Source: Magnolia sinica (taxonomy: Eukaryota; Streptophyta; Magnoliopsida; Magnoliales; Magnoliaceae). Taken from it: a DNA stretch of 64,000 nt. The position numbers and the translations under genes were made by a program. How positions within the stretch are numbered: the stretch's first letter is position 1; each line of letters begins with the position of its first letter. Under the pieces are notes generated by a model. It saw only the letters and a program-made list of their open reading frames with translations, was not told where the DNA came from and did no database searches. This document shows positions 16,100-63,180 of the stretch, in pieces. Where the stretch lies: the NCBI RefSeq assembly GCF_029962835.1, contig NC_080577.1, positions 4,340,001 to 4,404,000 of the forward strand, given 5' to 3'.

Positions 16100-18882
16100 A
16101 CTATCTTCACCATGTCTTTAATCTTCAATCGTGTAGCTATTTGACCTCTTCTCTTATCCCTGCATCGCATCATAACTTTAATTAACGCTTCTCGTGTACA
16201 CTCCGTCTTCTTTTTATGTCATCGCCAAGCCTAGAGAAGTTACACAGAACTTGAATTTTCTTGTAAGAATGACCTTGGTGAGCATGTCTGCCAGATCTAA
16301 ATTCAATTGCCTAACCACCTTTGCTCCTATCTTCCTAAAAGTAAAGACGTAGTCGTCTTATCATCTCACCGCCATCTAATGTAGCTTGCCGAGGTATTTA
16401 CTCATAATATCAATTGCCTGTAAAATAACCAGTCTAATACAGACCATGTCATGCACTGCCAACCGCATTTGAATAAGACTCATGAGATATATCTTGTTTT
16501 TCCTCATATTTTTTGGGACATGTCTTGAGAAAAACTTGAGGAGGTAACACTCTCTAACTTTGTCTAATCCATCACATTCTTGATCAATACCTACAAAAGG
16601 TATCTTACCTGTGATTACCAAAACCTGTTCCGCTTTCAGTCTCAATGTCGATAACCATCTTTGCAGTCCCCCGATCATTCATCCTGAATGTCCTACTTAA
16701 CCGAGTCTTTAGTACATTGATTTCATACACGTCATAATTGGCGATCTACATGTCATCAACATACTATTCCTGACTCACCGTGAAGGAATCAAACCATTGT
16801 CTAGGCGATAAGTCGTACCACGACCTCCTACAAACACTTTTTCTCACCCCCTTTAACTTCGAACCACTCTGGTTGTTTCATGTAGATCTGCTCTTCCAAT
16901 TTTCCATGCAGAAGTGCAGACTCCATATCCATCTTTTCCAACTCAAGATCGCATTGGCAACCAACGCCAATCATGGATCTAATAGACACCTGATATACCG
17001 GCGGGACGAATATCTCTGAGAAGCCGATCCCTTTTCTCTAAGTATAACTTTTTACTACCAACCCCGCTTTGTATGTATATTGTATCCTCCTAAAGATCCA
17101 CCTGCATCCAACCACTTTTTCGGCCCACTGGAAGCTCCACTAGCTCCCATGCGTAGGTTTATTATAACAAGTCCATCACATCGCCCATAATCACCTTCCA
17201 CTTCTCAACACCAAGCTCACCTAGAGCCATTTGAATAAAAGACGGATCCCATGCGATATTGGAGTTGTCCATGTACCTTGCCGATATCCTGTAATTATGT
17301 TGTGTGATTCTTCTCACAGGTGGCTGTTCTACCTGTTCCGTATTTCTGTTCGCGCGTCTTAGCCTTCATGCTCTACTCGCTCATGTGGTCATGCCCAACA
17401 TGTCACACATGTGCAGAGGTGAAATCCGCTACGGTTACTGCAACTCCACCTGTTGAAGTGCTCCCGATCAACTTGTAAACATTATCGAGTCATTGTACTT
17501 TCATGATTACACGTGCCCCCTTATATACTTTAAGGACACCATCAATACTTGTGAACCTACACCCTATAGCCTCAAGTGCACCGAGAGAAATTAGGTTCCT
17601 CTTCATGTTAGAAACGTGCCTCACCCCAGTCAGGGTATGTTCTGTTCCATCAAACATCTTAACACACACCATACCAACAGTCACAACATTATAGGCATTG
17701 TCATTGCCCATAAATATTTGTCTACCATCGCACTCTCTGTAACTGGTGAACCAACTCCAATGAGGAGTCATGTGAAAGGATGTCCCTGTATTTAGATTCC
17801 ACTCGCCCTTACAATCATCGTTTGGCCGTTTAATCGTAGACACAGACAAAACATCACCATCACATCCACTCGTCCATTTGATGTGGCAGCATTGGCCTCC
17901 TTGTATGAAGCCTCAGATTCTTCTATCTTAGATTTAGGATTTGTACAATCCTTCTTCACATGTCCTTCCATCCCACAGTTCCAGCACTTTATATTTCTTT
18001 TGCCCTTGCCCTTGGATTTGAATCTAGAACCTGAAGAACCTATACCTTGTTTAGAATTCCTACCCCTTATAAGCAGTGTATCAGAAGATATCCCCATGTC
18101 GACGTTAAGCCTTCTCATAACCTTCCCTTGAAAGGCTAAGATAATGGTATCAACACTCAGGATTTTATTCATGGTGCACAATGTGTCCTTTAATAACTCA
18201 CGATGCCGGAAGAGAATTCGGCAACATACATGCTTGTTCCTCGTCTTTCATCACTTTCTTCATGTTCAATAATTTGCAAACAAATTTATTGAAGTTGCTG
18301 ATGTGAGCCTCCAAATCTCCCCCCTCTGACATCTTAAAGTTATACCACTGTCGTTTTAAGTGTAGGCAATTTTTAAAGGATTTTTTCGCATAGACATCCT
18401 CTAACTTTGCCCATAACTTAGCCGCGGTTTTCTCCTTCATGACATTGTAGAGAACCTCATCCGTGAGACATAGACGGATCGATGATAAGGCCTTCTTATC
18501 AAGAGTATTCCAATCATTATCAGTCATAGTAGACTTTTGCTCCTCGAGAGCATCATCTTCGCATTTTTTGATTAAAGAATTGATCATTTTGATCTTCCAT
18601 AACTCAAATTTATTTTTTCCCGAGTATTTCTCAATATCATATCTAGTGCTTACAATTATTAGTTATCCCTCAGATTCAGATCTATGCCCCCACGATTGTT
18701 TTGATACCACTTGTTGGGATTTGGTCTGCGGAATCACACATATATGGATCTAGGATAGCAATCCAAGAGCACCAAAGTAATCACAAGAAAGGACTTACCC
18801 GATTCGAACAACCTCGAATCTTACCCTTGCTACATTATTTGATAACCCTAAAACCCTTTTAGAAACCCTTTAAATACTTGTA

Positions 18883-21519: not shown

Positions 21520-22195
21520 TTACCGTGGGGCCCATACTGATGTCTTTATCCTATATCCACGCCGTCCATCCGTTTTTCCAGATCATTTTAGGACATAATC
21601 ACAAACATAAACCGGATCCAAATCTCAGGTGGACCATACGATGAGAAACTGTGGTGATTGAACCCTCCACCATTAAAAACTTACTAGGGCCCATCATAAC
21701 GTTTACTTAATGTATATTTGCCATCCAACCTGTTGGTAGGGTTACACAAATCTGGACGAGGGAAAAAAAAGGATATAAGTTGATAAAAAAAATTGGCTCA
21801 CAGGATGTTTTTCATGGTAAAAAGTTTTGTGGCTGGTAAGAAGTTTTTAATGGCCAATAACCTTAAATCCGTATATATTTATCCAATCCGTCCATCCATC
21901 CTGGAAGATCATTTTAGAGCATGATCCCAAAAATGAAATAGATTTAAGGCTCAAGTGGACAACACTACGTGAAGCAGTGGAGATTGAATTCCTACCGTTG
22001 AAAAGTTAAACTCCGGTGCCCCCAAGAAATTTTTAATGGTAAACTTTTAGTCACTACTGTTTTATGTGGGCTGGTCCACTTTAACCTTAAATCTGGCTTC
22101 TTTTTGGGCTCACGATATAAAATAATGATATGTCAAGATAGATGGACGGCGTGGATAAAACATATACATCAAGGTGGCCCAGAGAGTCCGTCTCT
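21520..22195. mobile_element. MITE family A, two overlapping or nested copies
   Basis: Left-arm sequence (CACGCCGTCCATCCGTTTTT, CAGATCATTTTAGGACATAA) occurs at about 21557, and a second left arm at about 21880 (CCAATCCGTCCATCCATCC). A right arm follows at about 22140 (GATGGACGGCGTGGATAAAA). An end-like CCAATCCGC lies at 22221. The three arms indicate one element inside or beside another. It lies directly upstream of the NUWA gene and may supply part of its promoter. Confidence 0.6.
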
Positions 22196-26002: not shown

Positions 26003-26446
26003 GTAATGCAAGGGGCATTTTCACACTGGGCTCGAGTGGGGTGGCCTGTGGGATGTCGGGGCACACTCAGGGTGGACGGCCCGTGTGAGGCGAGACTCAT
26101 GTGATGTGGGGCCCACGAAGGGGTTTGGCCGATGACCTAACCCATGGGAAGTGGGGCATGGGCTATGAGATTAAGGGATTGATTCGCGATGCTCTATTAG
26201 TTCGAGCTTTAAGAGCAAGTGGTTAGTTGTCCTGTAGCTCGAGTGGGGTGGCTTGCGGGATGCCGGGGCATACTCGGGGTGAGCGGCCTGTGTGAGGTGA
26301 GACCCATGTGATGTGGAGCCCATGAGGAGGGTTCGGCCAAGGACCTAACCTATGGAAAGTGGGGCCTGGGCTATGAGATAAATGGATTGATTCGCCATGC
26401 TTTATCAGTTCGAGCTTTTAGAGCAAGTGGTTAGTTGTCCTACAGT
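26003..26446 (+). repeat. Family R1 repeat, two units in tandem
   Basis: GCTCGAGTGGGGTGGC begins units near 26030 and 26239, and GCAAGTGGTTAGTTGTCCT ends them near 26233 and 26441, giving a period of about 207 bp. The first unit also has the GGGGCATTTTCACACTGGGC start seen, inverted, at 5828-6119. The two units differ by scattered changes. It is an LTR-like fossil without coding content. Confidence 0.6.
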
Positions 26447-36445: not shown

Positions 36446-36915
36446 GCCTGTAACGTGCGGTAATCCCGAGCTCTGTGGGGCCCACCGTGATTTTTGGGTT
36501 ATATCCACCCGTAAATCCGTTTTTAAAGAAAATTTTATGACTCGATTCCAAACATGATGGAGATACAAAATCAGTTGGGGCACACCAGAAGAAACAGTGG
36601 ATATGGAAATGTCTACCGTTGAAAACTCCTTGGGGCCACAGAACTTCTAGATCAGGTTGATATTTGTGTTTTCCCTTCATCCAGCTTGGAATCACCTTAT
36701 AAACGCGTTGAATGGCGTATGCGGCCCAGGAAGTTTTCAACGGCGGGCATTTCCATCTCCCATCTCCACTGTTTCTTGTGGTGTGCCCCACTTTGTTTTT
36801 TGGATGATGTTTTGGGATCCTGTCCCACAACGAGTTGGAGAAACAGATGGACGGAGTGGATATAACACAAACATCACGGTGGGCCAGAGCCTGCGATTAC
36901 AGGTTAGTCGCAATT
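36446..36915. mobile_element. MITE family A foldback upstream of EMB1703
   Basis: The ends CCTGTAACGTGCGGTAATCC and, inverted, CCTGTAATCGCAGGCTCTGG flank arms with GGGGCCCACCGTGATTTTTG and, inverted, GGCCCACCGTGATGTTTGTG. The middle shows the family words ACCGTTGAAAACTCC and GTGGTGTGCCCCAC. No coding content. Confidence 0.65.
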
Positions 36916-38069: not shown

Positions 38070-41000
38070 TCAGCTACATAGGTTTGGTATGCACGCCCCG
38101 CCATCCGGGTTCTGCTGCTCCTTCCATATCCGGCCAGTGACACGCAACTTCAGCTCCTTCTTATCGCCGCCGGAGAAGAAAAGGGCCATGCTCCTCTGGA
38201 TTATGAGTCCATCGTGGCTGTCGCGGACCTTCCGGTGGCTGTCGCGGATGCTCCGTGGGGTGCCCTCCCACACAAGCTTCCTCCCATTGCCCCCCACCTC
38301 AAGGCTGTAAGTGTAGTTCCGGGCCTCAGACTCATCGCCCATGAAGCGAAGAAACGCCATGTACACAGGCGCCATCCCGAGCTGGAAGGCCTCAAAGTGC
38401 AAGCAGAAGTATTGCCCGAAACAATGGAAAACCTGAAAATAACAAAATGCTACCCATGTAATACCGAACCACTATAGGAAATTTGGATATTGGCACCATC
38501 TGGTTAAAATGCAGTGTCATGAAATGAGATCAGCACAAAAGTTTGCACTGTGCACTTGGGGTTTCGGTTTCGTAAGCGGGGCCCATGATTCACTTATCCA
38601 AGCCGCTGATTAATTGGCTGCATTGATGATGGGCCACGCACCCAAAAAAATCCCAGTGAGGATCATAGTTTAAAAAACTAGAAAACTTCACTCGACTCAA
38701 TGCTCATCTGGGCCAAGTCGACTGGAAGACTCGATTCAATAGTTAATAACTACAAATTTAAAACAGCAGGGATAGTAGGAAGTATTCAAATTAGTTAACT
38801 ATGTACAAGTAATTATAGAATAAGACAATAAGCAAGCAATTGATGCATAGGTTGGTTGAGTGCTCTACCTCTTTATAAGAGGTGATGGGTTTGAATCCTG
38901 CCCATGTTTCTTTTCACTTTTGAGTTAGAGTGAGTCGTCTCGAGTCGACTTAATGAGTTGACTTGTCCGAGTTGGACATGTTTTGAGTCAGCGAGTTTTG
39001 GAACTATGGTGGGGACATCCTAAACCTTCAATTGGTGGCCAGTGAATAGAAGGTTAAATGGTTAAGAAAGATAATACAGCAACTGTCCACCTTTAAATCC
39101 AAAAAAGGCCTAAGAAGATTCGATGGCTGGGATCTTTCCAATCATATGAATGGCATACAAATGATCTTCCAAGACAAAAATCAGCAATGCCTCCCATGAA
39201 GTGAGGAAAGGCCCAATTATGAGATGATTAAGTTAGTCCAACAAGAATCCCAATTCAACGGCTGACTGGATCCCTGGTTCAGATCATCATACACATTTCC
39301 ATGTATGGGGTACACCGTACATGGTCTGGAGGCATGAAACACTACAGAGGCAGGTAATTGGATGTAAATATAAATGGAGGAATTACTGGTGCTAATTCAA
39401 CATGACACAGTTTCCTGATGGGCATGTTCCGTATGGTTCACAATGGATGACGGATGCTTGAAAGGTCTGCCATATTGGAAGATCCCAGCCATCGAATATT
39501 TTGCCTTACTTCCTGAACTGTTGCTGTATTAACTTGTCAACCTTCCACCATGGATTCCTGTTTGAAGGGTTGGGATCTTCCAACCGATAAGTTTTTTTTG
39601 GGGCATCCTCCATCATCCATAATGGACTCAATCAGATTGATATACAGAGCAGCGTACCATGGGGCCCACTACTTGATGGTAATGCGTGCATGTGAACAAA
39701 CATACTTACTGTGAGCATCCAGGTTGCGTTTTCGACCTCGCGAGGATTGGACTTGACGTAGCGATGGTTGAACGTGCACCCAGTGTGCATATCTACTTTG
39801 TGGTCGTCCTTCAGATGCGTGACGAGTGAAGGAATATCACCAACAATGGAGCATTCAGATCCTGCATACGGGCAGTTGTATGGTCTGAAACTACACTGGC
39901 CTTCGTGCTTGAGCTTGCTGTAGTACGGGAAGATCTCCGGGCAGCCTAGTGAGAAGTACTTGCAGGGGAGCTCGAGCGACTCAGCCACCTTCTCCAGCGC
40001 CAAACACCTGATATCGCCGAGCTCTTGCCTGCAAGTGGGGCACCGGTTATGGACCCTAGACTTACAGGTGGAGCATAGCGTATGCCCATTGTGGCACTGC
40101 CAGAACAACACTCAGAATCTTAATAATTCATGCCCAGTAAAATCATATACAAAAACCAAGTGGATAATAAGTATTAGAGAAAAACGATGACAGTTAATCA
40201 ATAAATACGAGGAAATTGTCCCCGTGATGTGATGCTACTGGCTAACAGCCAGAAAGAGGATTTACATGTCCTCAGCCCATACGGCTGCAACTTGGGTTCT
40301 AGTCAGATCGAACCTGATTGTCCCAACCTGAGTTTGAGTCGGGTTGGGTCGTTAAGGTCTTTGGGTTGGGTTTAAGTTGGAATATATCAACCTGGTTTGA
40401 ATTCTGGTTGGGAAAATTCAGGTCAGGTCAGGTTGGGATGGGAATAATCACATGTATTTGGGTTGGGTCAAGTATAAAGGACTTCGGTTGGGTTCTGGTT
40501 TAGCACCTCAGGTTGGGTCAGGATGTGGGTTGGGCCCTCTTGCTCTCGGGTTGGACTTGGGTTAACCCTCAACCAGACCCGACCCAACCTAGTTGCTCCC
40601 CCATCGACCCATGCATTGTATCCATATGTTCTTAGTTTTTACAAGTGATGCTAGTGGTTAATGATCAGGAGTGTCGATCTAATGGGCCCTGCTAATCTTA
40701 CTCCGACACTTTGAGATGGGCAGCTTACTCGTCTGAAACAGTAAAAAAAATTGAAGGTAAATGACAAACTGGATTCTGTTCCCAGGGGACATAAGGCCCT
40801 ACAGTGGATGGGCCATGGCCCCAAGTTTTCCTCAATGTGACAATTCCAACCCTTTCTTCCACTTTTGGCCTACAAATAGACTGTTAAGAAAAGAAATACA
40901 GCAACAATCAACATTCAACTGATAAAAGGACAGATGGGCAGTTTGGATCTTCCAATCTGGGAATTTTGAGCACATGGTCCATCAGCATGGGGCCCATCAG

Positions 41001-46713: not shown

Positions 46714-47413
46714 CAGATATAACCACCAACTTCTAGCAAAAGGCACAATCTTCCTAAAAATAATGAAGAAAGAAAGAAAATAACCAAATTCTTCATAACC
46801 CCATTTGGCATTTCCGTTCCTCTCAAATCTATACGCCACAAGCATTAATCCAGAAATTCTCTACCAGATTGAATTCAGCGAAGAACAACCCAATCATAGA
46901 AAGAAAAAGGATTGATCCACATTAACAATTCCCCAAAACCGTGCCGCATTCTATCAAAATTCCATTCCTTGGGGATTGTACAGAGAAATCAATCCCTCTA
47001 CCAAAAAAAAAAAACAATCATAATTTTTTTTTAAAATCCCAAAAAAAAAAAAAGAAGCTCAGATCACCAAATCATCCAGAACCCATCTCGCATTCCCCCT
47101 CGAATTCCAATCCCAAGAAACCGAACGACGTAAAACCCAGAAAATTCAATCCCTGACAAACAAACAACCGCACCCAAAATAAAAAACGGACCTGATGGAT
47201 TGGTGGGTACATGGAATTGGTGCAGACAGGGCATTCGAGCAGCTCGTGGACGCTACTCGTCGGAGGAATCACCGAAGAGACATTGGAGGAATTGTTGCTG
47301 TGGTGGGTCTTGGAGAATGTATGGTGGTGATGCTGGACCGTTGTCGTAATGGTAGAATCATCATCGTCGATCCCATCAGACGATGAAATGCATTCAATGG
47401 CATCCAAATCCAT
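38070..47413 (-). CDS. SINAT3: SINAT-type RING E3 ubiquitin ligase, three exons
   Basis: The exons are 47192-47413, 39710-40096 and 38070-38432. They sum to 972 nt, or 323 aa plus stop, within the 305-327 aa normal for plant SINAT proteins. All joins are phase 0: [14 protein letters not shown] and [16 protein letters not shown]. The C3HC4 RING spans about residues 61-98 (CPVC, CHNGH, CSTC, CPTC). The SINA zinc-finger/TRAF-like domain covers about 115-319 ([37 protein letters not shown]) and the end is CIPNLCS. The N terminus is acidic, then His/Ser/Asn-rich (DDDDS, QHHHHTF), as in the SINAT3/SINAT4 group. Such ligases work as dimers and mark target proteins with ubiquitin; Arabidopsis members act in growth, light, stress and autophagy signalling. 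The subgroup is inferred from the N terminus and neighbours. Intron 1 is 7.1 kb with LINE remnants; intron 2 is 1.3 kb with a foldback. The intron 1 donor (GTCCGT) is a little off consensus but fits the family junction. Confidence 0.95.
38662..39010. mobile_element. Foldback element in SINAT intron 2 with a tRNA-like core
   Basis: The ends ATCATAGTTTAAAAAACTAG and, inverted, ACCATAGTTCCAAAACTCGC mark a 349-bp element with GACTCG/CGAGTC-rich arms. At its centre (about 38848-38912) lies a tRNA-like sequence, described separately. Confidence 0.55.
38848..38912 (+). other. tRNA-like sequence (possible decayed tRNA or SINE head)
   Basis: GGTTGGTTGAGTGCTCTACC looks like a D arm. ACCTC-TTTATAA-GAGGT makes a 5-bp stem with a 7-base loop, anticodon position TAT. 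GGGTTTGAATCC resembles the B box and T arm. The T stem pairs poorly and I find no clean acceptor stem, so it is not called as a working tRNA gene. Confidence 0.35.
39011..39709. other. SINAT intron 2, repeat-derived text
   Basis: This is intronic. An inverted theme is seen between 39115-39135 (GAAGATTCGATGGCTGGGAT) and 39478-39500 (GAAGATCCCAGCCATCGAAT), suggesting a decayed foldback of about 380 bp. No coding content. Confidence 0.4.
40278..40603. mobile_element. Family C repeat in SINAT intron 1 (hAT-like)
   Basis: The ends are GGCTGCAACTTGGGTTC and, inverted, GGGGGAGCAACTAGGTTGGG. The interior is dominated by GGTTGGG words with TAATCACATGTA, as in the copy at 20683-20993. No transposase is seen. 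Confidence 0.5.
41925..42003 (-). other. tRNA-derived sequence, possibly a SINE head
   Basis: The minus strand reads CCATCCCTCAGTGGTAGACT, an A-box-like start, and then GGGGGTTCAAGCCC, a good B box (GGTTCRANYCC). A stem-loop between them is imperfect. A SINE 3' end is not clear, so this could also be a decayed tRNA copy. It lies in SINAT intron 1. Confidence 0.4.
42516..43078. repeat. Tandem duplication, 284-bp period, in SINAT intron 1
   Basis: CAATTGGGAATTTTTCAGAG starts at 42547 and 42831. Shared blocks continue through AATGAAATCTCATTCTCGAT-like sequence, GTGTTTCATTTG and AGAAAGATATA-CCTTGGTTATA. The copies differ by perhaps one base in ten, so the duplication is not recent. Confidence 0.8.
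43429..44110 (-). other. Intron stretch with a poly-T and two unexplained coding-like frames
   Basis: A poly-T at 43429-43441 followed by GGTGAAGGATATACATAAC looks like a LINE tail on the minus strand. Two minus-strand frames are not explained. One at 43903-44091 begins [18 protein letters not shown] and continues [15 protein letters not shown], after a TTCAATTCCAG acceptor-like word. Another near 43640-43740 reads [20 protein letters not shown]. They could be fragments of an inserted or captured gene, or chance. I do not recognise them. Confidence 0.25.
44126..44770 (-). mobile_element. L1-type LINE 3' fragment
   Basis: Minus-strand pieces HFWMASCE and [17 protein letters not shown] follow the zf-RVT region of plant L1s (compare GWLVGKKKILTVDNLRKRG in the copy at 10360-10906). 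The 3' UTR-like part ends in A-rich sequence at 44126. It is interrupted and adjoins a second LINE at 44771. Confidence 0.55.
44771..46400 (-). mobile_element. L1-type LINE remnant in SINAT intron 1
   Basis: Poly-T at 44772-44781 marks the poly-A end of a minus-strand copy. Read on the minus strand from 46400, the pieces are [45 protein letters not shown] (twice, 45750-45920) and [20 protein letters not shown] (about 45340-45400). A roughly 90-bp tandem duplication causes the doubled [10 protein letters not shown] block, and a roughly 48-bp one lies at 45189-45262. Stops and shifts show it is dead. It lies in gene orientation. Confidence 0.75.
46667..46709 (+). repeat. (GA)n microsatellite in SINAT intron 1
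   Basis: About 21 uninterrupted GA units, which read as (TC)n on the gene strand. It lies 480 bp from the intron 1 donor. Confidence 0.95.
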
Positions 47414-48194: not shown

Positions 48195-48602
48195 GGTTGG
48201 AGCCACCTTCATGTACGTGCCTTACATCTACGCTGTCGATCCGCTTTGACAGCTTATTCCATGCATGGTATAAAAAACGTGAAGCCAAACCAAATCTCAG
48301 ATGGACCACAATAGAAAACAGTGGTGATCGAATACCCGTAAATAAAAACTTCTCAGGGCTATCAGAATGTTTATTTTCTCATATAAGGTTAAAAGACCTG
48401 TATGAAAAGACCATACAAATATCATTTTGATTCAAAACTTTGATAGTTTACAAGAAACTTTTAACGGTCAATCAACACTGTTCCTATGATGTGGTCCACT
48501 TGAGATTTATATCTTCTATCTATTTTTACCATACTCTAAAATAAGCTCTCAAAACGGATGGAATATGTGGATGTAAGGCACGTATATCAAGTTGGGTCCT
48601 AC
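48195..48602. mobile_element. MITE family A foldback
   Basis: The left arm has TACGTGCCTTACATCTACGC and, inverted, the right arm has TACGTGCCTTACATCCACAT. The interior has the family words AAACCAAATCTCAGATGGAC, GTGGTGATCGAA and GATGTGGTCCACTTGAG. Confidence 0.65.
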
Positions 48603-51429: not shown

Positions 51430-51945
51430 TTCAGTTCAGTATGGACGCGGATTAGCTACTCACAGGTTGCGTAGCGAATCTCGCTACCGAAGTGACGTCA
51501 CCAAATTTTGTGGACCCCACCATTATGTATGTATTGTATCCACACCGTCCATAATTTTGGAGAGATCATTTTATTTCATAATACAAATAACGAAGCAGAT
51601 CCAAAGATCCAGTAGACCACACCACAGAAAAAAGTGAGCACGGTGATGCGCACCGTTGAAACCTTCCTAGGTCCATAGTAACGTTTATTTCAGATCCAAC
51701 CTGTTAATAAGTTAACACATATATGGAAAAAAGGAAAAAAACAAATATCACTTTAGATATGGTTACTAAGAAGTTTTTAATGGTAGGCGTTCAATCCCCA
51801 CTATTTTCTATGGTGGGTCCATTTGGGCTTTCGAACTACCTCATTCTTTAGTTCACGTCTGAAAATGATATCTCCACAATGATAGACAGTGTGGATACAA
51901 TACACACATAATGGAGGGGCTCACCAAAGTGGTTGACGCTATATA
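51430..51945. mobile_element. MITE family A foldback next to the satellite
   Basis: GGACGCGGATTAGCTACTCA begins it. The left arm has TTGTATCCACACCGTCCAT and the right arm, inverted, has TTGTATCCACACTGTCTATC. The interior has GAAACCTTCCTAGGTCC and GGTGGGTCCATTTGGGC. The satellite array begins right at its right edge. Confidence 0.7.
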
Positions 51946-54480
51946 ATGGAGGGGTCAATTCAATGCATTTCATGGTCAATTCCCTTCACTTCACGGTTAT
52001 TTCCACACATTTCACGTCAATTCACTTCACTTCATGGTCATTTTCATGCATTTCACGGTCATTCTAGGCTATTCCGTGTTGATTCACGGTCATTTCTATA
52101 CATTTCACGGTCAATTCGCTTTACTTCACGGTCATTTCTATGTATTTCACGGTCATTTCGCATCACGTCACAGTCATTTTCATGCATTTCATGGTCAATT
52201 CACTTCACTTCATGGTCATTTCTATGCATTTCACGATCATCCTTACTGATTACATGTTGATTCACGGTCATTTCCATGCATTTCGCGATCAATTCCCTTT
52301 ACTTTATGGTCATTTCCACGCATTTCATGGTCAATTTGCTTCACTTCACGGTTATTTCTATGCATTTCACAGTCATTCTCAGCAATTCTGTGTTGATTCA
52401 CGGTCATTTGCGTGAATCAACACGGAATCGCCGGAATGACCGTGCATTAACACGGAATCGCTAGGAATGACCGTGAAATGCATGGAAATGACCGTGAAAT
52501 GCATGAAAATGACAGTGAAGTGAAGCGAATTGATCGTGAAATGCGTGGAAATGACCATGAAATGAAAGGAATTGACTGTGAAATGCATTGAATTGACCGT
52601 GAATCAACACAGAATTGCCGGGAATGACCGTGAAATGCATGGAAATGACCGTGAAGTGAAGCGAATTGACCGTGAAATGCATGAAAATGACGGTGACGTG
52701 AAGCGAATTGACCATGAAATGCGTGGAAATGACCGTGAAGTGCAGGAGATTGACCTTGAAATGCGTGAAAATTACCGTGAATTAACACGAAATCGTCGGG
52801 AATAACCGCGAAATGTATGGAAATGACTATGAAGTGAAGCGAATTGACCGTGAAATGCGTGAAAATGACCATGAAGTGAAGGGAATTAACCGTGAAATGT
52901 GTGGAAATGACCGTGCATCAACATGGAATCACCAGGAATGACCATGAAATGCATGGAAAGGATCGTGAAGTGAAGCGAATTGACCGTGAAATGCGTGGGA
53001 ATGATTGTGAAGTGAAGGGAATTGACCGTGAAATATATGGAAAGGACCGTGAATCAACACGGAATCACCAAGAATGACCGTGAAATGCATGGAAATGATT
53101 GTGAAGTGAAGCGAATTGACCGTGAAATGCATGGAAATGACCGTGAAGTGAAGGTAATTGACCGTGAAATGTGTGGAAATGACCGTGAATCAACATGGAA
53201 TCACCGGGAATGACTGTGAAATGCATAGAAATGATTGTGAAGTGAAGCGAATTGACCATGAAATGCATGAAAATGACTGTGACGTGAAGCGAATTGACCG
53301 TGAAATGCTTGGAAGTGACTGTGAAGTGAAGGGAATTGATCGTGAAATGCGTAGAAATGACCGTAAATCAACACGGAATCGCTGAGAATGACCATGAAAT
53401 GCATGGAAATGATCGTGAATTGAAGCGAATTGACCATGAAATGTGTGGAAGTGATCGTGAAGTGAAGGGAATTGATCGTGAAATGCGTGGAAATGACCGT
53501 GAATCAACACGGAATCACCGGGATGACCATGAAATGCATGGGAATGACCGTGAAGTGAAGCGAATTGACCGTGAAATGCATGGAAATGACCGTAAGTGAA
53601 GGGAATTGATCGTGAAATGGGTGGAAATGACCATGAATCAACACGGAATCGCCGGGAATGACCGTGAAATGCATGGAAATGACCGTGAAGTGAAGCGAAT
53701 TGACTGTGAAATGCGTGGAAATGATTATGAATCAACACGGAATCGCCAGGAATGACCGTGAAATGCATGGAAATGACCGTGAAGTGAAGCGAATTGACTA
53801 TGAAATGCGTGGAAATGATTATGAATCAACACGGAATCGCCAGGAATGACCGTGAAATGCATGGAAATGACCGTGAAGTGAAGTGAATTGACCGTGAAAT
53901 GCACAAAAATGACCATGACGTGAAGCGAATTGACCATGAAATGCGTGGAAATGACCATGAAGTGAAGGGAATTGACCGTGAAATGCGTGGTAATGACCGT
54001 GAATCAACATGGAATCGCTAGGAATGACCGTGAAATGTATGGAAATGACCGTGAAGTGAAGCGAATTGACCGTGAAATGCGTGGAAATGACCGTGAAGTG
54101 AAGGGAATTGACTGTGAAATGCGTGGAAATGATCATGATTCAACACGGAATCGCTGGGAATGACCGTGAAGTGAAGCGAATTGACTGTGAAATACATTGA
54201 ATTGATCGTGAAGTAAAGGAAATTGACCGTGAAATGTATGGAATTGACCATGAAGTGAAGGGGAATTACCAAAATTGACCATGAAGTAAAGTGAATTGAC
54301 CATGAATGTGAAAGGAATTGACTGTGAAATGCATGGTATTGACCGTGAAATGAAATGAATAAAATTCACCGCGAACTGATTGAAATTGATCGCGAAGTGA
54401 ATGAAGTAAATGAAATTGATCGCGAATTGATTGAAATTGACTACGAAGTGAATGAAATGGATTTTCAACCATTGGCATGA
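51946..54480. repeat. Inverted higher-order satellite of 21-bp TGACCGTGAA monomers
   Basis: The array is built of 21-bp monomers headed TGACCGTGAA. They come in type A (tail ATGCRTGGAAA), type B (tail GTGAAGCGAAT) and type C (tail GTGAAGGGAAT), plus a 31-bp marker unit D (TGACCGTGAATCAACACGGA, then ATCGCCGGGAA). The usual order is D-A-B-A-C-A. Up to about 52406 the units read on the minus strand; from about 52412 to 54480 they read on the plus strand, so the array is one large unequal palindrome. D units in the right arm start at 52594, 52772, 52908, 53044, 53180, 53358, 53494, 53628, 53722, 53816, 53994 and 54130. Beyond 54150 the units lack D and drift to TGATCGCGAA forms. Open frames of up to 192 residues on both strands follow from the 21-bp period and are not taken as genes. 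Confidence 0.93.
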
Positions 54481-54809
54481 TGAAATATTGAAAAATAAGT
54501 TGGTTAGCTAAAGTGTCATCTGCTACCCAAAATCCTTTATGTTACATGAAGTAACTCATTCTGGCTTAAGAGATATGTTTATTAACGAATAAAGAGAAAT
54601 GAATAAAAAAAGAGATTTTTTTTTAATTTTTATTTTTATATGCTTATATATATATAACTATGTGTTAGAAATAAATGTAGGGGAGAAAAAGTTCTCCTCG
54701 TAAATTATTATTATTATTATCTAAGTAGACAGGTGGGACAGCGAGTCAGGTTGGCCAGGCAGGATTTTTTCGTTTTTTTCCTTTTTTTTTCCATTGTAAT
54801 CCTACTACT
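54481..54809. other. AT-rich spacer
   Basis: Low-complexity AT sequence with TATATATATA near 54645 and ATTATTATTATTAT near 54705. No gene or element is defined. Confidence 0.5.
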
Positions 54810-55235
54810 TTCTATGGTCCCATTATGATGTATGTGTTATATCCAAACCTTCCATCTATTTGGCAAACTCATATTAAGGCTTGAGACGAAAAATAAGACA
54901 GATCTAGCTATCAAGTGGACCACACCGTAAAAGGCAGTGGAGGATTGAACGTCTACCATTGAAATCCTTTCAGGGGTCACAGAAGTTTTAAACCAATAGG
55001 TTCATCCAGGTCTTTGTGACCTTATGAATAGATTGGATGGAAAATATATGTTATGGTGGGCCCTATGAAATTTTTATCAGTGAAAATCAAGTTTCCGGCT
55101 GCTATTTGTGGTGTGGTACAGTTGATCTTTGGATATGATTTTTTATTTTTTATTCCGATAATGCTTTGAAAAGATCTCGAAATATGGATGAACGGTGTGG
55201 ATATAATAAATACATCATTGTGGGGCCATATCGAG
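54810..55235. mobile_element. MITE family A foldback
   Basis: The left arm (GTCCCATTATGATGTATGTG, CTTCCATCTATTTGGC) and right arm (GATGAACGGTGTGGATATAA, TACATCATTGTGGGGCC) are inverted copies. The interior has TATCAAGTGGACCACACCGT and GGTGGGCCCTATGAAATTTT. Confidence 0.65.
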
Positions 55236-55407: not shown

Positions 55408-55835
55408 ATTTCAAAAAGAAGTGGGCTAAAAATGGCTGGTAGGCCATAAATGGGCCGTACAGTAGGAAATATCTCATCCGTGCCCGACCAGACAAGGACA
55501 TCGAGAGCAGAAACGAGGAGAGCGGAGGATCTTCGCAGATGGAGAGTTTCCAAAGACTCAAATTGCCAATTCCTTGTCTGTGGGACTCATGTTTCCATAA
55601 TCAAGACCGTTGATCTAAGATTCCACCGTGGATAGGTCTGTCCCAAAATCTCAAATATTATAAAATACTAATCATTCTATCAGAAAATGTACGGTCTAGA
55701 TAGCCGAACCGGCGGGCCTCACACGTGCAGAATTCCGTGAAAGTGCGAGTTTGTTAAAGCTTTGGATCCTGTATATATCAGTCCACGTAATTGAAGTGGT
55801 CCCTGGGTTCCAGCTTAGGTGGAAAAGGACGGAAT

Positions 55836-56364
55836 CGGATTGCGTACTGAGTTACTCAGTACGCTCTTATCGTACTGAGTAAACTCAGTTGGGCCCACCG
55901 CGAATGCGTGTGGTTTATCCACGCCGTCCATTCGTTTTTCCAGATCATTTTATGGGTTCAACCCAAAATTGATACATATATAAAGTTCAAGTGGACCGTA
56001 CCACTGGAAAAAGTGGAAATATTGATTTCAACCGTTGAAAACTTTCTAAGGCCCCCAGTGATGTTTATTTGTCATCCAACCTGTTCATAAGATAGGAAAG
56101 ACATGGATGAAGGGAAAACACAAATATCAGCTTGATCTAAAACTTCTGTTGTCCCCATGAAATTTTCAACGGTAGATGTTCAATTCACACTGTTTCCGGT
56201 GGTGTGGTCCATTTGAGGTTTGTATATACTCCATTTTTTCAGTAAAGCCCTAAAATTATGTGTTAAAAGAGATGAACGGAGTGGATATAATGTATGAATG
56301 ACACTAGGGCCCACAGAGTTTACTCAGTACGCTTACTGTACTGAGTTACTCAGTACACAATCCG
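55836..56364. mobile_element. MITE family A foldback with compound palindromic ends
   Basis: Each end carries CGGATTGYGTACTGAGTAAC- or CGGATTGCGTACTGAGTTAC-like sequence followed by further GTACTGAGT/ACTCAGTAC palindromes (55836-55890 and 56317-56364). The arms have TTATCCACGCCGTCCATTCG and, inverted, TATATCCACTCCGTTCATC. There is no coding content. It lies about 430 bp right of the terminal-only palindrome. Confidence 0.75.
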
Positions 56365-56488
56365 CTTCCGAAAAGGACCGCCGGATAGGTAGGGCCCAAC
56401 AACGGCTTTGTACCGGAACCCTTCATATCTAATATTCTGGGGTGGCCCCCTTCATATCTAATAGTGCCAGAATGTCATGTGCGGGTGG

Positions 56489-57527: not shown

Positions 57528-58345
57528 TAGGGCTGTCAATTTTCCGGGCTCGGGTCTGGAAAAATCAAAATTTTGAATAGGCCCGGTCCAAATAGTTCAA
57601 AATCCGGCCATAGCCAACCCAGGCCAGGTCTATTGATAGCCGGGCGTGGATTAGGTTGTTACGACGGAACACCTTAGTGGGGTTACCCTTTACCGTGGGA
57701 CTCACCTTGATGATATTTTGTATATCCATGCCGTCCATCAGTTTTTCCAGACCATTTTAGGATGTGGTCCCTAAAATTAAGAATATCTAAATCTCAGGTG
57801 GACCACACCACAGGAAAAAGTGATGATTGAAGAGCCACCATTAAAAACTTCCCAGGGCCCACCCTAAGATGATTTGTAATGTTTATTTTCCATCCAACCC
57901 ATTGATAAGGTCAAAAAGACCTGCATGAAGGGCAATAATAAAGATAAGCTTGATCCAAAACTTTCATGGCCTATAAAAAATTTTTAATAGTCATTCTCCA
58001 TTTTTTCCAGTGGTGTGTAATCTGCTTAAATTTTTTAAAAAACCATTAAATGATCTTAAAAAACAGATGGACGGCATGGATATACAAAAAATCTCATAAA
58101 GATAGGCCCCACACGGTAAGGTTAACACCCACTAAGGTATTTCTGGGTAATTAACACCTAATCCACTCCCTAATTGCTGGGGCTGCAATGGGAAGGTGGG
58201 CCCCGAAGGTACCTGAACACGCCCGACATGGTTGGGTATAGGTGTGTCTAAGTGGGTGTGGGTCCAGGTTAATGTACTGTTTCTCACCTGATTAATAATT
58301 TGGGTGAGGGTGGGACCCGGAGCCGAACCTACTCATATTATACAT
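57528..58345. mobile_element. Decayed hAT-like element split by a family A MITE
   Basis: TAGGGCTGTCAATTTTCCGG at 57528 is a typical hAT-type end, and the GGTCTGG/CCAGGTC-rich text after it stops at about 57647. GGGTGTGGGTCCAGG text resumes after 58172. The right end is not clear. Between them lies a complete family A element (57648-58172). Confidence 0.45.
57648..58172. mobile_element. MITE family A foldback with long inverted ends
   Basis: The left end GTGGATTAGGTTGTTACGAC, with ACACCTTAGTGGGGTTACC, and the right end, inverted, GTGGATTAGGTGTTAATTAC, with ATACCTTAGTGGGTGTTAACC, pair over about 65 bp. They continue into arms with ATATCCATGCCGTCCATC. The interior has CTCAGGTGGACCACACCACA. Confidence 0.8.
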
Positions 58346-62631: not shown

Positions 62632-63180
62632 GGACACGGATTGCGTCCTACCCCCTCCCGTCTCCAGTTGGGAACTGGCAAGAGCTTTGAGTGGCCATCG
62701 TGATGTATGTGTCTTATCCACACCGTCCATCCATTTTTTCGTATCATTTTAGGGTATAAACCCAAAAATGAGCAGAACCAAGACTCAAATGGACTACACA
62801 ATGGGGATTAAACTCTTACCGTTGAAAACTTCTCAGGGGCCATAGAAGTTTTGAATGGAGCTAATATTTGTGTTTTATCTTCATCCAGGTATATGTAAGT
62901 TTGTAACTTTATGAATACTTTGGATGAGAAATAAACATCACGGTGGGTCCTAGTAATGTTTCAACGGTGATAATCATTATCACCGCTGCTTCCTATGGTG
63001 TGGTCCACTTGAACATTTTATATAGATAAATTCTGGGCCAATGCCCTAAAATGTTATGAATAAATGGATGGACGGTGTGGATAAGACCCATATATAACGG
63101 TGGCCACTCAAAGCTCCTGCCTGTTCCCAGCTGAAGACCGGGGGGGGGGGTGGGTGGGGTGGGAGGACGCAATCCGCGTC
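62632..63180. mobile_element. MITE family A foldback with a (G)n-rich right end
   Basis: CGGATTGCGTCCTACCCCC starts it and, inverted, GCGGATTGCGTCCTCCCACC ends it. The arms have TTATCCACACCGTCCATCC and, inverted, TTATCCACACCGTCCATCC. The centre shows GGTGATAATCATTATCACCG, itself a perfect palindrome. A GGGGGGGGGGTGGGTGGGG tract lies near 63141. Confidence 0.8.

Follow-up and report, generated by a model that had tools for sequence, protein, structure and literature searches.

A minisatellite array with a single orientation switch in gene-bearing DNA of Magnolia sinica

We found a tandem array of about 2.5 kb that reverses its orientation once in a 64,000-nucleotide stretch of Magnolia sinica DNA (the window). 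The flipped array is real, yet it looks like fairly ordinary repeat evolution. Its two arms have diverged from each other, and the left arm, turned back, continues the right arm in phase. The origin that we favor is an old inversion in place of the array's left end. The sequence comparisons make this event, and its early date, probable but by no means certain.

Structure of the array

The array lies at positions 51953-54462. It is built of 21- and 31-bp units, which is a minisatellite scale. It was parsed by dynamic programming against four consensuses taken from the window (D, 31 bp; A, B, and C, 21 bp each). The basic higher-order repeat (HOR) is D-A-B-A-C-A and contains 136 bp. HOR variants of 178 bp (an extra B-A), 94 bp (D-A-B-A), 115 bp, 134 bp, and 187 bp were also present. 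The periods reported by TRF for the array include 21, 42, 94, 115, 136, and 178. Autocorrelation peaks were found at 136, 42, 178, 21, and 94 bp, with lower ones at 31, 10, and 11 bp. With at most one mismatch, TGACCGTGAA had 91 matches in the window, 4 of them outside the array; 100 shuffles gave a mean of 3.77 and a largest count of 9.

The left arm reads DABACA-DABABABA-DABACA on the minus strand. The right arm is read on the plus strand, contains 90 units over about 2,050 bp, and opens with DDAABACA-DABABABA-DABACA. There is one switch and no spacer, with minus-strand reading to 52409 and plus-strand reading from 52411 (Table 1). The ratio of observed to expected CpG was 1.31 in the array versus 0.58 in the whole window. 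Minus-strand frames of the array run without stops for up to 211 amino acids (e.g., 53190-53825). They are unlikely to be coding, because 136 is not a multiple of 3.

Table 1. Features of the array and its surroundings, in window coordinates
Feature	Position	Strand	Remarks
Left arm	51953-52409	-	Three HORs (136-, 178-, and 136-bp types) with 20 units in all, 457 bp
Orientation switch	52410		Single base matching neither arm consensus (our reading)
Junction hairpin	52390-52423		Perfect stem of 13 bp, loop of 8 nt
Right arm, regular part	52411-54251	+	R1-R13: 187, 178, 136 (one 134), 94, and 115 bp
More homogenized core, R5-R12	53051-54136	+	Mean internal distance 10.2%, versus 16.8% in R1-R4
Right arm, decayed edge	54252-54462	+	Last nine of the 90 units
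Palindromic MITE-like element	51496-51938		In the flank, outside the array; its right end is 14 bp from the array
Palindromic MITE-like element	21871-22167		Listed as inverted repeat
Palindromic MITE-like element	36460-36900		Listed as inverted repeat
Palindromic MITE-like element	48196-48602		Listed as inverted repeat
Palindromic MITE-like element	55830-56370		Listed as inverted repeat
Palindromic MITE-like element	57642-58170		Listed as inverted repeat
Palindromic MITE-like element	62651-63147		Listed as inverted repeat
SINA-type zinc-finger exon	39632-40111	-	
ORF, possible first exon of the SINA-type gene	47072-47413	-	Some 7 kb upstream of the zinc-finger exon; no Pfam match

The initial annotation had described a satellite array that reverses once and forms a large unequal palindrome. 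The unequal palindrome and its single reversal were confirmed by the unit parse, the strands of TGACCGTGAA, a 10-mer strand test, and the inverted pairs. Within the array, all TGACCGTGAA matches keep to the minus strand as far as 52406 and to the plus strand from 52437 onward. Ten-mers shared with the right-arm core (52800-54100) were counted in seven bins. The three left bins had 0 forward and 75 to 91 reverse matches. In the four right bins (one of them within the core), there were 52 to 127 forward and 0 reverse matches. Aligned with the right arm, the left arm scored 584 as its reverse complement and 17 forward, and 200 shuffles gave a mean of 32.5 and a maximum of 48. The longest among the inverted pairs listed contained 394 nt with 86% identity. 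The arm lengths first claimed (about 460 and 2070 bp) are within some 20 bp of those parsed. The D-A-B-A-C-A order holds for the basic form, and the 178-, 94-, 115-, and 187-bp forms stand beside it. The word satellite is generous at 2.5 kb, and minisatellite array fits better.

Divergence of the arms

The arms were compared over 450 bp in 11 registers by gapped alignment, and identities were 83.8 to 87.5%. The register symmetric about the junction (the mirror register) reached 85.3% and ranked 7th of the 11. The HORs were also aligned slot by slot. This alignment contained 15 HORs and excluded R13, the edge units, and the first D and first A of R1. Mean distances were 17.5% among left HORs, 15.7% between left and right HORs, and 12.1% among right HORs, and the HORs beside the junction differed more from one another than those of the core (Table 1). 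Neighboring right-arm HORs were only slightly closer than nonneighbors (11.2% versus 12.3%).

The mirror triplet (L1-R1, L2-R2, and L3-R3) was 17.5% different. It ranked 1,235th of 1,320 ordered triplets and last of the 10 consecutive runs. Under three other cuts of R1 it ranked 990th to 1,162nd of 1,320 and 8th of the 10 runs. When CpG sites were left out, it ranked 1,272nd to 1,311th of 1,320 under the four definitions of R1. The mirror register is thus never the best, and the extent of its shortfall varies with the method. By sequence, the arms have no sign of maintenance for mirror pairing.

In the HOR tree, 11 of the 12 inner branches were open, and L3 and R1 were not grouped. A single clade of left HORs was neither shown nor rejected (p-AU, 0.239). 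R9 and R10 (53635-53822) are adjacent 94-bp HORs with 97.9% identity. No other pair in the HOR matrix is closer, so theirs is probably the latest duplication.

Counted against the majority consensus, CpG transitions affected 25 of 82 left-arm sites and 60 of 306 right-arm sites. Non-CpG transitions were found at 19 of 367 and 44 of 1,366 sites, respectively. The excess at CpG sites fits putative methylation of the cytosines.

Origin of the inverted end

The course of events that we favor is as follows. A local minisatellite array may have grown head-to-tail through slippage and unequal exchange, from a founding motif of probably about 10 bp to the 136-bp HOR. Later, but not recently, the left end (about 457 bp) would have been inverted in place. 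The breaks would lie at the left edge of the array near 51952/51953, beside the MITE-like element, and inside the array near 52410. After the inversion, the arms would no longer have been able to pair head-to-tail, so exchange would have homogenized the right core while the left arm and the junction-side units drifted. Decay of methylated cytosines would have added CpG transitions. A possible mark of the left breakpoint is the 12-mer ATAATGGAGGGG. It is found at 51908-51919, in the end of the MITE-like element, and at 51943-51954, at the left edge of the array, 35 bp apart and nowhere else in the window.

The phase of the arms agrees with such an event. At the outer end of the left arm, the next HOR position expected is 134, and the right arm starts at position 133. 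Flipped back, the left arm therefore joins the right arm in continuous phase with a 1-base overlap. Among the 136 simulated end phases, 2 gave a near-perfect continuous joint (at least 89 of 90) and 4 reached at least 80. The parse agrees with the phase: after its last D, the left arm has the five units A-B-A-C-A, which complete a whole HOR. The joint stretch after the flip-back matched the consensus at 72 of 90 bases. In ungapped scoring, position 134 was slightly ahead of position 92 at 60 bases (54 versus 52) and at 42 bases (38 versus 37), and position 92 was ahead in the 90- and 115-bp windows. Position 134 was retained because the gap-aware parse gives a whole HOR and a 20-bp B unit in L3 breaks the ungapped registers. 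Over the initial 33 bases, the right start at 133 stands out, with 26 matches against 18 for the runner-up. It ties with 103 at 60 bases, and R1 has two D units.

L3 and R1 become neighbors only after the flip-back. Over all sites they were the closest of the 36 left-right HOR pairs under all four definitions of R1. The distance was 12.6% under two definitions and 9.7% under the two with the first D of R1, and the lead was small in the basic cut (12.6% versus 12.8% for the next pair). Without CpG sites, the pair ranked first of 36 where R1 was defined with its first D (two definitions) and 6th or 8th where it was defined with its second D (the other two). L3 and R1 have three variants in common, each found in only 2 or 3 of the 15 HORs, which is the highest count of any pair. 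CATTGAATTGA was found at three places in the window, namely, L3, R1, and 54195. The phase and neighbor tests were devised after the parse had been seen, and we take them as suggestive of the inversion, not as proof.

The array could instead have arisen by snap-back (fold-back) replication, a palindromic duplication in which the polymerase reversed where it met a short inverted match and made one arm as a copy of the other, with the mirror blurred later. The perfect 13-bp stem with its 8-nt loop exactly at the switch would suit this origin. So would the D unit close to the start of both arms, the order outward from the junction (the 178-bp form second and the 136-bp form third on both sides), and the middling rank of the mirror register in the gapped alignment. 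Slot by slot, however, the mirror register is poor under every definition of R1. L1-R1 ranks only 9th to 25th of the 36 pairs over all sites, where L3-R1 is first, and the phase fit of the left outer end would be left to chance (2 to 4 of 136). We consider this origin rather unlikely. A young palindrome or a sequencing fold-back needs the mirror register to be the best, and its lower rank argues against both a palindrome in a read and a recent snap-back duplication.

Tandem arrays are easily misjoined, and a wrong join of two arrays or two reads could also give a flipped array. A palindrome from a missed adapter would have near-identical mirror arms, but the arms differ by about 15% in the mirror register. 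A random join need not be continuous in phase, whereas the flipped-back order is. We hold an assembly artifact to be improbable. Slightly more improbable still is the remnant of a foldback-type transposon with terminal inverted repeats built of short tandem repeats. The array has inverted arms of short modular repeats, which resemble those of foldback elements, but no common terminus was seen beyond the general likeness of the units. The 8- to 10-bp target duplication was absent at the array ends (51900-51975 versus 54440-54520). In the single 9-bp match between the ends, which has one mismatch, the left copy sits within an array unit. The copies of an 8-bp match, also with one mismatch, are at 51924 and 54508, over 20 bp beyond the ends. 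The 7-bp inverted match TGGTTGA near the array ends may be a chance one. There is also no middle domain, as the arms abut with one unassigned base, and no second copy of the array within the window.

If the left end was inverted in place as we propose, the array offers a small example of an inversion that seems to exclude part of an array from homogenization. The divergence of the left arm, the junction side, and the core can be read side by side in one array.

Folding potential

The region across the junction (51950-52920, 971 nt) was folded as RNA. The plus strand gave -635.6 kcal/mol, versus a mean of -270.5 (standard deviation, 7.0) in 20 shuffles. The minus strand gave -588.7 kcal/mol, versus a mean of -257.6 in 20 shuffles. 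The predicted plus-strand fold contained 427 pairs (36 of them G-U), of which 416 were between the arms, and the longest run was 47. For 970 nt taken from the right arm alone, the fold was ordinary (z, -1.49). The initial annotation had suggested that a transcript crossing the junction could fold into a hairpin with arms of about 450 bp, and in energy this is plausible. The fold of the whole array pairs the left arm with scattered parts of the right arm and so defines no single stem.

The initial annotation held single arrays that flip outside centromeres to be uncommon in gene-bearing plant DNA. Inverted repeats as such are not rare in the window, and hairpin-capable DNA is common there. Nine other inverted repeats were listed, with spans of 160 to 541 bp. 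Two of them were folded, and both were much more stable than their shuffles (z, -20 and -12).

A hairpin RNA and small RNAs made from it by Dicer are possible if the locus is transcribed. A further reading is that transcription of the flipped array supplies Dicer with a hairpin. The inverted minisatellite would then be a new small-RNA locus, and it would silence similar arrays at other sites or methylate the stretch upstream of the neighboring SINA-type gene. We regard this chain of predicted steps as improbable. If the hairpin is expressed, the array would illustrate a route from a tandem array to an inverted-repeat source of small RNAs. As it stands, the array is a local curiosity, and any function of a hairpin is hypothetical. 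The spacing of AA has a peak at 10.4 to 10.5 bp in both arms. Bent DNA is not claimed, because 8.5 bp scores the same in the right arm.

Comparison with known systems

The closest likeness is to the macro-dyad symmetries of Tribolium satellites, which their authors describe as documented exclusively in Tribolium (PMC13081366). Those arrays, as described there, also change orientation, in most cases as two opposed subarrays. They too have the potential to form hairpins, and their units at the switch are diverged. The present array likewise has one repeat family in two opposed orientations. By the same account, the macro-dyads extend from a few kilobases to tens of kilobases and lie in large regions that are likely (peri)centromeric; the present array is a single one of 2.5 kb in gene-bearing plant DNA. 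The inversion sites in Tribolium are reported to be conserved across thousands of sites (PMC13081366). Were the small-RNA reading true, the macro-dyad arrays, so far reported in Tribolium, would have a plant counterpart on the gene side.

The Tetris foldback transposon is reported as a case in which foldback repeats can seed satellite arrays (PMC4079207). Its inverted arms, as reported, are built from tandem repeats, as in the array; the array differs from it in having neither a target duplication at its ends nor a middle domain.

The array is also like the plant long-hairpin small-RNA loci in that its inverted arms are able to fold as RNA. IR71 and IR2039 of Arabidopsis are such loci and are described as linked to 21-nt RNAs and high methylation (PMC5910406). 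Any transcript of the array is likewise predicted to fold into a long stem. In Physcomitrella, 132,656 inverted repeats are reported to make up 6.2% of the genome, with a median arm identity of 79%. The Pp21SR small-RNA loci there are described as enriched in inverted repeats, and most Pp23SR loci are not (PMC2600652). The palindromic MITE-like elements of the window have hairpin potential like that of the array; unlike the array, they have related copies in the window.

According to a figure legend, a plant centromere paper plots satellites by forward and reverse strand (PMC10910784). These charts suggest that there is nothing new as such in plant satellites of mixed orientation. A literature search returned no gene-side plant case of a flipped array among the matches listed (titles and abstract beginnings). 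Of 234 papers with at least one of five repeat words, the 15 listed look unrelated, again from titles and abstract beginnings. Exact array patterns had no match in bacterial and archaeal genomes or viral contigs, which are nonplant collections and silent on plants. We judge the array to be a private one with an inverted end, of an already known kind.

Genomic setting

The array lies in gene-bearing DNA, and the window contains a PPR gene as well as the SINA-type zinc-finger exon of Table 1. The ORF listed in Table 1 looks to us like the first exon of the SINA-type gene. If so, the array is about 4.5 kb upstream of this ORF. No array remnants above chance were found elsewhere in the window (best E value, 4; reversed-sequence control, 3). 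Across the whole window, Rfam gave 0 matches at the gathering threshold and ARAGORN gave 0 genes.

TRF reported no tandem array within the flanking MITE-like element (51496-51938). Relatives of this element were found right of the array, at 54820-55225 and beyond, and the MITE-like elements beside the array match several others in the window by blastn. The window also contains a 208-bp tandem duplication at 26030-26441 with 87% matches. Pieces of a Copia-type retrotransposon lie on the minus strand at 17490-18662, with Pfam matches to Retrotran_gag_2 and Pol_BBD.
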